From Candidatus Merdivivens pullistercoris (lineage in GTDB: Bacteria > Bacteroidota > Bacteroidia > Bacteroidales > UBA932), in contig JADIME010000033.1 of the NCBI GenBank assembly GCA_017694935.1, forward strand, positions 1 through 36,300: a DNA stretch of 36,300 bases, written 5' to 3'. The notes under the pieces were generated by a model that was given only the letters and a program-made list of their open reading frames with translations, was not told where the DNA came from and ran no database searches. Below are positions 9,934-14,390 of the stretch, in pieces. Every line of letters starts with the position of its first letter. The stretch's first letter is position 1. A program made the translations under genes and the position numbers.

Positions 9934-11661
9934 ATGCATACACGAAATCATACCATCCCCGTCCTCGTCAAACTGACATTGGCACTCGTCGCCTCAATTT
10001 TGCCCGTAAAATCCTATTGCCATGATATAGAAGGCGATGAGACTATCTATGATCTATATCTTGACAATCTGGAGAGAGACAGGGACAAAGCCATGGAAAT
10101 ATGCGAAATATATCTGTCGGGCATAGATTCCACCGGAGGGAACCTGCTAACCGCGTCACTATGCGACAGTCTTGCCCAATGGTGGGGAGAAGAAAAATTC
10201 CAGTTCACGAAAGCCATAGATTGGATGGAAAAGGCCCTGCACATTTATGACAAAAAAAACATCCCTCGGGAAATGGCAAACATGAAATATAAACTTGCCA
10301 GAATGTATTTGAAACTGGGACAGTACCACAAAACCCTCGCCTATGCATACGAAGCGGCGAACTACTATGAGGACAAGCACGATATTGCAAGGGCTCTGGA
10401 CTGTTACAATCTGTTGGGCATCGTATTTCATATCTGTATGGATTTCAACCAGTCATCAAGTTATTTTTCTAAAGTTGCAAAAGGTGCGCGAGAAATAAAT
10501 GACACAGCAAGGCTTGCAGGAGCGCTTAACAACTCTGCCCTCCTTGCAGTTACGCTTGGCGATTCACTCAAAGCCGAAAACATGGCCGTCGAATCAATAA
10601 GGTTAAGCCGCGCGATAAACGACACCTCGCTGATATGCCAATGTTACCTCAATATTGCATCACAATACATCGGAAGAGGCATGCTTAGCAAAGCGGAAGA
10701 AAGCCTGCACCATGCGGAAGACTTCATTGACAACATAGACATGGCAGGCGATTGCCACCGTATATGGGGGATGCTGCACATCTCTCAAGGAGACACGCAA
10801 GCCGCTGCCGGACAACTCGAAAAGGCCGTACAATATTATGCCGAAGGGGAATTTTATGCCAAAAGGCTATTCTGCCTGAACATGCTATACACGATATACG
10901 AAGAAAACGGTGCTTGGCGAAAAGCCTACGAAGCCTTGAGAGAGTACCATCGTCTAGACAAAGCCTCTTCTGACAAAAACGTATATTACGAACTCTTCAA
11001 AACGCAAAACGGCATAATCCTCAAAGACGAGAGGCAAAAACTCCAGGAAGCGAAAACAGAGCAACTGCTTGGAGGAATATCCGCACTGTTCGTGCTAACG
11101 GTCTCGACCCTTATCATCTGGTATACCTTCAAACGTAAAAAAATGCACATTTCTCAGAAAGAAGCCGAAATACAAAACCAAAAACTACTAAACGAAAAGA
11201 ACAAACAGGAAATCAGCTCTAAAAAAGAAATTCTCGAAATCAAGCAGATGCAACAATACAAAATAGACAAAATCATTGAAGAAGTGATGGAAAAACTGGA
11301 TAAACTGTCTGCATCCATAGGCAACGGTGCCGCGAAAGACGAGATCAATCTTCTTTGCAATGACCTGAAAAACACGCGGGATGAAAACTCATGGAAAGAA
11401 ATAAGCCTGTATGTCCCTGAATTCAACAGCGATCTTTTCAATGACATCATAAAGTCCTTTCCCAATCTTACCGTCAATGAACGACGTCTGCTAGCACTGT
11501 TAAACATGAACATGACTACAAAAGACATAGCCAAAATAACGATGCAGACCCCGCACAGCATCAATATCGCCCGATACCGGCTGAGGACCAAACTCGGACT
11601 GACAGGAAGCGAAAAGACCATTCAGGAATTTCTTTCCGAATATAAGAAAAAGGAAATATGA
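9934..11661 (+). CDS. Membrane-spanning TPR regulator with LuxR-like HTH domain
   Basis: A 575-residue protein with a N-terminal signal-like segment (residues about 10-28, VLVKLTLALVASILPVKSYC). Residues about 40-360 are helical repeats of TPR type (for example YKLARMYLKLGQYHKTLAYAYEAANYYED, CYLNIASQYIGRGMLSKAEESLHHAEDF). One membrane segment is at about 377-397 (GGISALFVLTVSTLIIWYTF), followed by a Lys/Glu-rich coiled coil (about 398-465). The C-terminal region (513-565) is a LuxR/GerE-like helix-turn-helix: NERRLLALLNMNMTTKDIAKI, then PHSINIARYRLRTKLGL. The topology suggests a periplasmic sensor and a cytoplasmic DNA-binding part, a one-step membrane regulator. The nearest likely targets are the two lipoprotein genes just downstream. 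The signal and target sites are unknown. Confidence 0.85.
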   Translation: MHTRNHTIPVLVKLTLALVASILPVKSYCHDIEGDETIYDLYLDNLERDRDKAMEICEIYLSGIDSTGGNLLTASLCDSLAQWWGEEKFQFTKAIDWMEKALHIYDKKNIPREMANMKYKLARMYLKLGQYHKTLAYAYEAANYYEDKHDIARALDCYNLLGIVFHICMDFNQSSSYFSKVAKGAREINDTARLAGALNNSALLAVTLGDSLKAENMAVESIRLSRAINDTSLICQCYLNIASQYIGRGMLSKAEESLHHAEDFIDNIDMAGDCHRIWGMLHISQGDTQAAAGQLEKAVQYYAEGEFYAKRLFCLNMLYTIYEENGAWRKAYEALREYHRLDKASSDKNVYYELFKTQNGIILKDERQKLQEAKTEQLLGGISALFVLTVSTLIIWYTFKRKKMHISQKEAEIQNQKLLNEKNKQEISSKKEILEIKQMQQYKIDKIIEEVMEKLDKLSASIGNGAAKDEINLLCNDLKNTRDENSWKEISLYVPEFNSDLFNDIIKSFPNLTVNERRLLALLNMNMTTKDIAKITMQTPHSINIARYRLRTKLGLTGSEKTIQEFLSEYKKKEI

Positions 11662-11753
11662 GCATCAAGCCGCTTTACCACGCCACCAGCTTGGAGAAGC
11701 AGTTTCCGAATCGCGACATTAAGATGCCGTTTAAAATACCGGACAGAATATAA
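11658..11753 (+). CDS. Possible 31-residue small ORF overlapping the regulator stop
   Basis: The ATG overlaps the TGA of the regulator gene (ATGA), a classic coupling layout. It encodes MSIKPLYHATSLEKQFPNRD followed by 11 residues, ending at TAA 11751-11753. There is no signal peptide or membrane segment and it is not recognised. It could be a real small coupled protein, the remnant of a longer gene, or chance. Confidence 0.3.
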   Translation: MSIKPLYHATSLEKQFPNRDIKMPFKIPDRI

Positions 11754-11766
11754 CCCGGCCTATGTG

Positions 11767-11856
11767 TATACATAAAGTATATAAAAAACAATTATTAGGT
11801 ATATACTATATATACGAATACAAACACGACTGTCATATACTTTCAAAGTAAATTTG
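11767..11856 (+). promoter_or_regulatory. Promoter region of the first Ig-like lipoprotein gene
   Basis: The -7 box TAAATTTG is at 11849-11856, 27 nt before the ATG at 11883; no good -33 TTG is seen, which fits an activator-dependent promoter. Upstream are AT-rich inverted repeats: TATAC-ATAAA-GTATA (11767-11781) and GTATATA-CTA-TATATAC (11799-11815). These are candidate binding sites for the adjacent HTH regulator. Confidence 0.45.
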
Positions 11857-11882
11857 TAGAGTAATTTTAAAACTTCAAAAAA

Positions 11883-13373
11883 ATGAAAAAGAATCTGCGA
11901 ACTTACTTGTGCCTTACAGCCTCCTTTATAGTGTTATCAGGGGGCGTTTCATGTTGCACCGAAGAGACTGTAATTGAAGTGACCGACATCAGTCTTGACA
12001 AAACGAGCATTGATATCGCCCGCGGAAGTACGATGACACTGCAGGCTACCGTATTGCCTGACAATGCAACCGACAAAACGATAATCTGGGATTCAAAGAA
12101 TCCTGAAATCGCGACAGTTACCCAGGAAGGGGTCGTGGATGCAATCGCAATAGGGACTACGACAGTATCCGCGCAGGCCGGCGGGAAAATTGCCGTGTGT
12201 CGAATCAATGTCATAGGAAAACCGGCGGAAACAGTGACCGTTACGCCTCAGGAACTTTCAATCCTAAAAGAGGAAACATCCCAATTGAATGCGGAAATAT
12301 TCCCGGCCGATGCCGATCAGAAAGATATTGAATGGAGTACGTCAGACTCGACAGTTGCAATTGTGTCACAAGACGGGACAGTGTCAGCAATCAGCGTAGG
12401 CAAATGCACTATATATGCCACCTGCGGAGATGCCTCCGGACAATGCTCGGTAACTGTAGAAGGAATACCTGCCGAAAGCATCGCAGTCACACCTGAGGTT
12501 GCGGAAGTGCTGCTTGGAGGTAGCATTAGGCTCACGGCTTCCGTACAACCGGACAATGCAGATTATGAGACCATACAATGGACAACATCGGACGAAAGCA
12601 TCGCCACGGTGGCACAGGACGGAACCGTTACCGGCAAAGCAATAGGCACGGTGACAATCACCGCAACCACAGGCGACATATCAGGCAGCTCTGAAATCAC
12701 CGTGGTACAGCCTCAGGCCAAAGTAGGAGACTTATACTATTCAGACGGGACATGGTCGACGGAACCAGACCCGCAAAAACAAATCATAGGAGTGATTTTT
12801 TATGTCGGCCAGCACGAAAATGACGCCTCCGATTACAGCGAAAGCGGGATTGGCAAATCGCGCTGCAACGGATACGCCATGGCACTGACAAACGCCACAG
12901 ACCAGTATTGTTACTGGGGGCCTGAAAACGGAGAGGACCTCGGATGCTATCCGATAGACGAAAACGGAAACATCGTGGACAACTACACTAATGGCAAAGA
13001 GTGCGATTGGAGCGGATACAAATACACGCAAATAATAAAAGAGGCCGCACAAAAAAACGGAGGCCCGGCTCCCGATCAGGCAAGTACATACCCGGCTATA
13101 TTCTATACTCTCGATTATGAAAACACCGTGCCTTCACCGGAAAGCAGTTCCGGATGGTTCTTGCCAGCAATAAGCCAGACATACACACTAATCGAAAACA
13201 GTTCACTGCTTGAAAAGGCCGGAGCCAGCCTTCCTACTGACTGGTACTATTCATCTTCCGAAGATTCATGGGCACTCGACATGGTACTTTCAATAAACAT
13301 GAGTACCATGACTGTACGCTCGAACTGGAAAGAAAGCAAGGTAAACCTTATACGCCCTATACTGGCGTTCTGA
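11883..13373 (+). CDS. Lipoprotein with three Ig-like (Big_2) domains and a DUF1566-like C-terminus
   Basis: A 496-residue predicted lipoprotein. The signal peptide ends at a lipobox-like LSGGVSC near residue 24-25, so it is anchored in the outer membrane, possibly facing outside. Three bacterial Ig-like type 2 domains follow at about 33-110, 114-190 and 195-272; each carries the family pattern of a T-L-x-A-x-V-x-P-D-A start and a W-x-S-x-(D/N)-x-x-I/V-A-T/I-V core. Residues about 278-496 form a domain with SGWFLPAISQ and WYYSSSED, which match the WRLP and YWSSSE signatures of DUF1566/FISUMP-type domains (C-type-lectin-like). Adhesion or ligand binding is the usual guess for such proteins; the ligand is unknown. 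The paralogue follows 18 nt downstream. Confidence 0.8.
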   Translation: MKKNLRTYLCLTASFIVLSGGVSCCTEETVIEVTDISLDKTSIDIARGSTMTLQATVLPDNATDKTIIWDSKNPEIATVTQEGVVDAIAIGTTTVSAQAGGKIAVCRINVIGKPAETVTVTPQELSILKEETSQLNAEIFPADADQKDIEWSTSDSTVAIVSQDGTVSAISVGKCTIYATCGDASGQCSVTVEGIPAESIAVTPEVAEVLLGGSIRLTASVQPDNADYETIQWTTSDESIATVAQDGTVTGKAIGTVTITATTGDISGSSEITVVQPQAKVGDLYYSDGTWSTEPDPQKQIIGVIFYVGQHENDASDYSESGIGKSRCNGYAMALTNATDQYCYWGPENGEDLGCYPIDENGNIVDNYTNGKECDWSGYKYTQIIKEAAQKNGGPAPDQASTYPAIFYTLDYENTVPSPESSSGWFLPAISQTYTLIENSSLLEKAGASLPTDWYYSSSEDSWALDMVLSINMSTMTVRSNWKESKVNLIRPILAF

Positions 13374-13391
13374 TAAACGGAGAACAATACC

Positions 13392-14390
13392 ATGAAAACA
13401 ATGAAATTCTTACAAGCGGCACTGATTCCTGTAGCGACATTGCTATATTCATGCAACGGCGATGGCACCACACCATCGGAAATACAGGTAGAAGGCATAA
13501 AACTTGACAAATCAGAAATTTTGGCTTTCGTAGGCGATGAAATAAAACTGGAAGCCATATTGACACCAGCAGATGCAGACAACGCCACGATTGAGTGGAG
13601 TTCGTCAGATGAAAACATAGCCACTGTGGACAGCACAGGACTTGTCGTTCTCCGCATGCAAGGAGAAGCCAGCATATATGCGACATGCAACGGACTATAC
13701 GATCAATGCGATTTGACATCGGTTTTTGTCGAAGTCGGCCAATATTATTGCAGCGACGGGACATTCAGCGATGAATACGATCCTCAAAAGGCCATTGCCG
13801 CAGTCTTTTATACAAGACAGCACCCTAACGATCTTTCGGACTACAGCGGCACAGGAATAAGAAGGCAAAAATGTCACGGGTACGCGGTCGCGCTGCATGA
13901 CGCCATTGACTCTTACTGCATTTGGGGACCTTATGACATTCTTGAATGCTATCCCAAAGATTCTGAAGGAAATCCTATCGACAATTTTTCGGGAAATACG
14001 TCTGACACGGATTGGAGCGGCTATCTCTACACTCAAATGATATATGAAGCAGCGCAAAAGGAAGAGGGACTGTGGGGCAATGACGTATTGAACGACTACG
14101 CGGCTTGTTGGTATGCGATGAACTATGAACAGAAAGCACATGCCCCTGAAAACAGCAGCGGATGGTTTTTGCCGTCCGGCAGCCAACTGTGGGAGATTTT
14201 TGAAAACATAGAAATACTTGACAGACAACAGGAAACGGCTCTGGTTGAAAATGATTGGTATTGGTCATCTTCCGAATATTGCGACATACCTTGGGAAGGT
14301 GCCAACTTCCTGAACACACAACAAGGCAGTATTGAGGCATACGATAAATTCAAAGGCGCGATGCTCGTGCGCTCAGTAATCGCATTTTAA
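13392..14390 (+). CDS. Lipoprotein paralogue with one Ig-like domain and a DUF1566-like C-terminus
   Basis: A 332-residue predicted lipoprotein with lipobox LLYSC near residue 21. It has one Big_2 domain (about 30-112, IEWSSSDENIATVDSTG) and a C-terminal domain (about 113-332) clearly homologous to that of the preceding gene: YYCSDGTFSDEYDPQKAIAA, SGWFLPSGSQLWEIF, YWSSSEY. It begins 18 nt after the previous stop, so the pair is one operon formed by duplication with loss or gain of two Ig-like domains. The shorter stalk would place the same type of head domain closer to the membrane. The ligand is unknown. Confidence 0.8.
   Translation: MKTMKFLQAALIPVATLLYSCNGDGTTPSEIQVEGIKLDKSEILAFVGDEIKLEAILTPADADNATIEWSSSDENIATVDSTGLVVLRMQGEASIYATCNGLYDQCDLTSVFVEVGQYYCSDGTFSDEYDPQKAIAAVFYTRQHPNDLSDYSGTGIRRQKCHGYAVALHDAIDSYCIWGPYDILECYPKDSEGNPIDNFSGNTSDTDWSGYLYTQMIYEAAQKEEGLWGNDVLNDYAACWYAMNYEQKAHAPENSSGWFLPSGSQLWEIFENIEILDRQQETALVENDWYWSSSEYCDIPWEGANFLNTQQGSIEAYDKFKGAMLVRSVIAF

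Follow-up and report, generated by a model that had tools for sequence, protein, structure and literature searches.

How does a gut bacterium choose which surface proteins to make? The surface of gut Bacteroidales carries many lipoproteins and fimbrillins, and the control of which of these are made is mostly obscure. The question is raised by three genes at positions 9934-14390 of a 36,300-nucleotide stretch of Candidatus Merdivivens pullistercoris DNA (contig JADIME010000033.1; hereafter the window), where a gene for a putative membrane-bound regulator precedes two lipoprotein genes. The window, contig C12, belongs to a 2.12-Mb genome of the genus Candidatus Merdivivens, Bacteroidales (95 contigs, 98% complete; referred to as G000). 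An earlier sequence-only reading had proposed that the regulator senses an envelope signal and controls the two lipoproteins. We confirmed the observation behind this proposal and found its interpretation partly supported; what changed is the reading of the proposed palindromes and the standing of the unit, which has many paralogues, with two kinds of HTH domain between them. The explanation that we favor, and consider likely, is that a one-component membrane activator binds a direct-repeat operator and turns on its own adhesin operon, much like the FimS/FimR system placed in one chain.

The three genes are + strand open reading frames (ORFs) at 9934-11661 (575 amino acids), 11883-13373 (496 amino acids) and 13392-14390 (332 amino acids), as the sequence-only reading had listed them. 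The first encodes a protein with the layout that had been described as leading from periplasm to DNA in one chain: a hydrophobic N-terminus read as a signal segment, tetratricopeptide repeat (TPR) matches, one membrane helix, a long helix and a weak match to a LuxR-like helix-turn-helix (HTH) domain. The predicted periplasmic TPR solenoid (residues 36-345, 10039-10968) matched Pfam TPR_12 (E-value 1e-8, over its cut-off) and TPR_MalT, and an AlphaFold model built on a two-sequence alignment gave a solenoid of helical hairpins over the same residues, with a predicted local distance difference test (pLDDT) score mostly of 75-95. Foldseek searches with the model returned TPR proteins, among them Rap peptide receptors; a sequence search of the PDB gave no match at an E-value of 0.01. 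Hydropathy indicated a single membrane helix at about residues 377-397 (11062-11124), followed by RKKK, which by the positive-inside rule would place the HTH in the cytoplasm. Residues 351-460 formed one helix in the model, of low confidence over its cytoplasmic part, a probable coiled coil (residues 398-460, 11125-11313). The LuxR-like HTH (residues 509-567, 11458-11634; recognition-helix region TPHSINIARYRLR) was also modeled with low confidence. Its match to GerE/LuxR (PF00196, residues 511-559, E-value 0.039) was below the cut-off; conservation and predicted helices would agree with a C-terminal GerE-type HTH. Among 10 members from the genus the HTH was the most conserved part, with a mean identity of 68% compared with 34% for the sensors. 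Sensor, membrane helix and putative DNA-binding domain share one chain, as in a transmembrane one-component transcription factor, and the protein is probably a membrane regulator that couples envelope sensing directly to DNA binding.

Is such a regulator regularly found next to a lipoprotein gene? Among 43 intact regulators, which include a second class with an AraC-type HTH, 32 had, as the next gene on their strand and no more than 400 bp away, one for a lipobox protein, compared with 34 of 278 control genes taken from the same fetched loci (Fisher p = 8e-17). These counts were made with a simple longest-ORF caller that miscalled some starts, after removal of genes shorter than 150 amino acids without a lipobox. 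The linkage held for the LuxR-type regulators alone (13/20, p = 3e-7; 8/10 in the genus and 5/10 outside it) and was seen for AraC-type regulators in 18 of 22 cases within the genus and in the single case outside. Further LuxR-type loci had a lipobox gene next in nine of 14 cases, and two later ones in one. Among the misses, C18 has no lipoprotein gene and C81 has its lipoprotein genes upstream of the regulator; C43 was counted as a miss because a spurious opposite ORF intervenes, though a Big_2 gene follows. At C4 and its relatives a TonB-receptor-like gene comes first and the lipoprotein gene second. The sequence-only reading had proposed a search in other genomes; the unit recurs in the same genome, in the two other genomes of the genus and in further genera. 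A contig search with a single protein as query found only one close relative. The nearest relative (G001, locus L019) has the same three genes between the same neighbors, with identities to the window of 91% for the SdhC-like protein, 65% for the regulator, 71% and 65% for lipoproteins 1 and 2, and 68% for the aminopeptidase. In the closest named record, that of Candidatus Merdivivens pullicola, the orthologous regulator is 66% identical.

The gap between regulator and lipoprotein genes was examined for a site at which the regulator might act. Bacteroidales promoters have TAnnTTTG as their −7 element and TTTG as their −33 element. The window has the TAnnTTTG-type −7 element TAAATTTG at 11849-11856 (+ strand) and no TTTG in the 40 bp upstream, in agreement with the promoter that had been described. 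When the gap was aligned with that of the relative, TAAATTTG and AT-rich blocks at 11766-11781 and 11799-11815 were conserved. These blocks had been read as two palindromes, and it is here that we depart from the sequence-only reading. Considered by itself, the best inverted repeat was not above chance for DNA this rich in A and T (p = 0.21 in the window and 0.13 in the ortholog). Because inverted repeats did not exceed shuffled sequence in most regions, we replaced the palindromes by direct repeats: the blocks are better read as helically phased GTAYA direct repeats, 11 bp apart. The first pair, GTATA-N6-GTATA, lies at 11766-11781 and the second, GTATA-N6-ATATA, at 11799-11814, 33 bp after the first (both + strand). 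The four half-sites begin at 11766, 11777, 11799 and 11810; the fourth reads ATATA and begins 39 bp before the −7 box. With their reverse-strand readings, these two pairs are the only such sites in the window.

The repeat was also found downstream of other LuxR-type regulators. The word TGTATA/TATACA occurred in 11 of 18 LuxR-type gaps, compared with 1/22 AraC-type gaps, 2/28 other lipoprotein gaps and 7/64 other gaps. In a set of 27 non-redundant LuxR-type gaps (32 minus five near-copies), 11 gaps held 12 sense-strand GTAYA pairs exactly 11 bp apart; the shuffle mean was 0.04, none of 500 shuffles reached 12, and the 114 control gaps (22 + 64 + 28) held none. Further excess was seen at spacings of 22, 33 (and 32) and 44 (and 43) bp. 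A cruder TGTA half-site at one-turn spacing gave 13 pairs in 11 of the 27 gaps, compared with 4/123 control gaps. Expectation maximization (EM) on 17 gaps, with no spacing supplied, converged on a TTGTATA-N4-TTGTATA-type motif, which at 6 bits or more was present in six of 10 held-out gaps, 0/22 AraC-type gaps and 7/64 and 4/28 controls. For the measurement of repeat and −7 spacing, gene starts were reset by the position of the lipobox; the repeat was then present in 12 of the 27 LuxR-type gaps and none of 23 AraC-type gaps. Ten of the 12 repeat gaps had a −7 box, at 38-39 bp (eight gaps) or 48-49 bp (two gaps) from the second half-site.

Does the repeat belong to the adjacent regulator? An unlikely alternative, though the strongest of those we weighed, is that the operator serves a different protein that controls surface genes globally, and that the TPR-HTH gene simply accompanies the lipoprotein genes. 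The absence of the repeat from about half of the LuxR-type loci would fit this explanation, as would 11-bp tandem arrays of the GTATAACC type that precede unrelated genes in another genus (L140, L141, L147 and L148; G169 and G078, genus g19), with no TPR-HTH regulator alongside; these arrays are possibly sites of another regulator. The split between LuxR-type and AraC-type gaps argues the other way, as does a search of 398 genomes of the GTDB family with the composite pattern GTATA-N6-RTAYA-N32-35-TAnnTTTG. It gave 26 matches in 23 genomes (about 22, hand-counted, for a reversed control pattern). A strong regulator match was present in 18 of the genomes; seven of these held one pattern match each, and all seven lay directly downstream of a LuxR-type regulator, whereas the remaining 380 genomes had 19 matches. 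Moreover, the presence of the repeat followed the recognition helix: it accompanied 0 of 11 regulators with 'ART' or 'PES' in this region and 12 of 16 without (p = 2e-4), and a later locus with PES and ART lacked the repeat, as predicted. On the tree the repeat label changes seven times, at least four of them forced. Loci with the repeat occur in several clades, so they are not copies of one locus.

If the regulator binds the repeat, it might either activate or repress. Repression, with the promoter freed on a periplasmic signal, seems to us a shade less probable again than a foreign operator. It is left room by the sign of control being read from sequence, and it fits poorly with sites that lie upstream of the promoter, in helix phase and at fixed distances from the −7 box, and with the missing −33 box, an activator geometry. 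Because the spacing is fixed and helically phased we favor an activator, and the −7 box with sites upstream of it fits the activator-type control of the operon that had been suggested. From these features we infer the following steps. The periplasmic TPR sensor would detect an envelope signal, possibly a protein or peptide, as its resemblance to FimS (in 10/10 genus regulators) and to TPR receptors for peptides or proteins suggests. The signal would pass through the single membrane helix and the long cytoplasmic helix to paired LuxR-like HTH domains, which as a dimer (or higher oligomer) would occupy the GTAYA repeats of 11766-11814, all on a single face of the DNA and separated by one or more turns of the helix. 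The bound activator would then recruit RNA polymerase to a promoter with a −7 but no −33 box, and the two lipoprotein genes would be transcribed. The operator geometry is defined and directly testable.

Several observations weigh against activation through the repeat. LuxR-family proteins usually bind inverted repeats. The repeat is absent from 15 of the 27 LuxR-type gaps, including those of the G000 paralogues C70a, C70b and C18. No repeat was found upstream of the C81 lipoprotein operon, the one that precedes its regulator; a match on the opposite strand falls within a lipoprotein gene. The 11-bp spacing was spotted after all regions had been viewed, and the GTAYA spacing count is therefore not an independent test. 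Likewise, five of the seven composite matches came from the regions in which the pattern had first been seen, and G220 is a near-copy of G085, leaving G182:C1 as the only new, non-duplicate match. It adjoins a broken regulator gene (G182:C1:42505-43287), which is split in two with the operator still downstream. The recognition-helix split was drawn post hoc on relatives that are not independent, and a second later locus, predicted to have the repeat, lacks it and has no lipoprotein gene next. By eye, a regulator lies beside about 10 Big_2 clusters of G000, and about eight have none adjacent. Unlinked homologues, which the sequence-only reading had named as counting against it, do occur: within the family, 7/20, 5/14 and 1/2 LuxR-type regulators in the three sets had no lipoprotein gene next, the rest being linked, and at 29 loci read outside the family the lipoprotein gene was next in just two and the repeat present in one. 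That the linkage is a genomic-island effect, in which lipoprotein genes and TPR regulators pile up in variable regions with no functional pairing, would suit their patchy spread (a strong regulator match in 18/398 family genomes, and in 2/400 for genus g22) and the growth and shrinkage of lipoprotein arrays (L029 versus L024), but is improbable given a regulator immediately upstream, on the same strand and at short distance far over background, an ortholog pair between the same housekeeping genes, and the shared phased repeat.

What would the activator turn on? Both products of the operon are lipoproteins with immunoglobulin (Ig)-like domains, as had been noted: each has a lipobox, with three Big_2 domains in lipoprotein 1 (11883-13373, + strand; E-value 1e-50) and one in lipoprotein 2 (13392-14390, + strand; E-value 6e-10). 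Their C-terminal domains are 45% identical to each other, and that of lipoprotein 1 is related (E-value 3e-12) to a paralogue with a weak, below-cut-off match to Lcl_C; neither window lipoprotein reaches Lcl_C in Pfam. AlphaFold predictions for the C-terminal domain with four sequences had a mean pLDDT of 32 and gave no usable fold. The lipoproteins are probably surface adhesins in which an Ig stalk would carry a C-type-lectin-like (Lcl_C-like) tip, the tip being assigned through several weak links in series.

The unit has many counterparts in its genome. A search of G000 with the window regulator found four strong paralogues (36-40% identity), and in all the genome encodes at least 18 TPR-membrane regulators, five LuxR-type and 13 intact AraC-type. 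The second class was found in the regions of the 61 Big_2 domain matches of G000, where TPR-membrane proteins with a C-terminal AraC-type HTH head many lipoprotein clusters; HTH_18 matched in nine of nine (L057:4001-5704, L058:6015-7718, L060:3005-4642, L061:4715-6517, L063:2882-4645, L064:8129-10042, L069:4355-6109 and L071:2489-4273 in G000, and L024:3254-4957 in G002). The cargo is varied, with Big_2 stalks, fimbrillin-like Mfa_like_1 or BACON domains and ends that are Lcl_C-like, FGE-sulfatase or Fib_succ_major; the Fib_succ_major cargo adjoins a sixth, distant regulator (L011). A single regulator heads an array of about nine lipoprotein-like genes, all on one strand, at L007:8333-13900 and L029:103-7428, and the related G002 locus (L024) has about three; the difference between L029 and L024 suggests rapid gain and loss. 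Downstream of a conserved AraC-type variant, present in all three genus genomes (L024:3254-9007, L073:5515-7203, L084:5040-6731), come a TonB-receptor-like gene and a lipoprotein gene, in that order; the variant is flanked on its other side by a lipoprotein gene of opposite orientation. Broken genes include a regulator with two in-frame stops (G000:C53:14843-16516) and a Big_2 lipoprotein with one (G000:C43:15450-15638). The FGE-sulfatase fold is that of known variable proteins of diversity-generating retroelements. Such an element was considered because this domain forms the end of at least one of the C70 array lipoproteins, and was rejected since no RVT_1 match was found in G000, while control genomes do give one.

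Each of these paralogous regulator-lipoprotein cassettes would have its own sensor. A more speculative extension, which we put forward tentatively, is an adhesin switchboard of about 18 private one-protein circuits from envelope to DNA, with interchangeable LuxR-like and AraC-like ends, in which each regulator would read its own lipoprotein (or a peptide from it) by its TPRs and adjust its operon, the phased direct repeat serving as operator for the LuxR class. If the activator explanation is correct, a single gene provides both envelope sensing and DNA binding for each surface-protein cassette.

The lipoprotein cassette with a direct-repeat operator belongs to the GTDB family of the window genome. 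Regulator matches extend further, to 40 of 198 genomes at the order level (E-value 1e-30). Outside the family, 11 of 25 next genes had a signal-peptide-like start, compared with 64 of 306 control genes. A signal-peptide gene rather than a lipobox gene is often next to the LuxR-type TPR regulators there (L154, L155, L157, L159-L162, L164-L166, L168, L171, L173, L176 and L177). Neighbors at L027, inspected by eye, end in what we take to be the manner of type IX secretion cargo. The wider regulator family may lie beside secreted proteins in general.

The sequence-only reading had held that the combination was undescribed. A search of titles and abstract openings, with subscription papers and preprints outside its scope, found no TPR-membrane-LuxR regulator with lipoprotein cassettes and no such operator; BT_3442 and FimS, discussed below, are partial precedents. 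As far as this search shows, two things are new: the many paralogues, which fall into two classes by their HTH, and the operator made of phased direct repeats.

How does the window regulator compare with known systems? The AraC-type paralogues match weakly (nine of nine) to the TIGR04094 family of YSIRK-adjacent AraC surface-antigen regulators, in Gram-positive bacteria; the similarity is confined to the HTH (in member 1 the match covers nothing else), the surface-antigen role is taken from the family name, and the window regulator is not AraC-type. Rap proteins of the RRNPP group share the TPR solenoid (Foldseek match to 3ulq, E-value 1e-6), and RapF binds the DNA-binding domain of ComA, which is LuxR-type. 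They are, however, cytosolic and Gram-positive and only 15-19% identical, a generic match of TPR folds. CadC and ToxR are each an activator with a periplasmic sensor, one membrane helix and a cytoplasmic HTH in one chain, and the second periplasmic subdomain of CadC is described as TPR-like (PMC9214523). In the window protein the order is opposite, with the HTH at the C-terminus, the HTH is of another family, and no sequence relation was found.

Two further systems are those of Bacteroides and Porphyromonas. The BT3442 family (NF053779) and DUF6377 proteins of Bacteroides are TPR proteins of similar length, and residues 98-568 of the window regulator align nearly end to end with 85-560 of the 563 positions of the BT3442 model, albeit at an E-value of 3.5e-7 and 29.3 bits against a cut-off of 940 bits. 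In Bacteroides thetaiotaomicron, BT_3442 lies in a putative lipoprotein-rich operon that includes the MACPF protein BT_3439 (PMC2954219), an adjacency shared with the window and its paralogues. Its cargo consists of pore-forming proteins, and the available passages of that paper mention no regulatory role or operator. The FimS sensor kinase of Porphyromonas gingivalis has eight TPRs and a membrane helix and, with a separate regulator, FimR, activates the FimA fimbrillin, a surface lipoprotein (PMC5706477). HK_Porph_FimS (NCBIfam) matches 10 of 10 genus regulators; in the window protein the match covers TPRs, membrane helix and linker (residues 86-476, E-value 1e-14), at 53.5 bits far under the 600-bit cut-off. 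Both proteins thus join a periplasmic TPR sensor to a membrane helix. Whereas FimS is a histidine kinase with a separate response regulator, the window protein has no Pfam or NCBIfam match to a kinase domain past the sensor part and ends in an HTH, with the DNA-binding domain on the same chain. If our explanation holds, it would be a one-chain counterpart to FimS/FimR and would offer a route to what a periplasmic TPR sensor detects.

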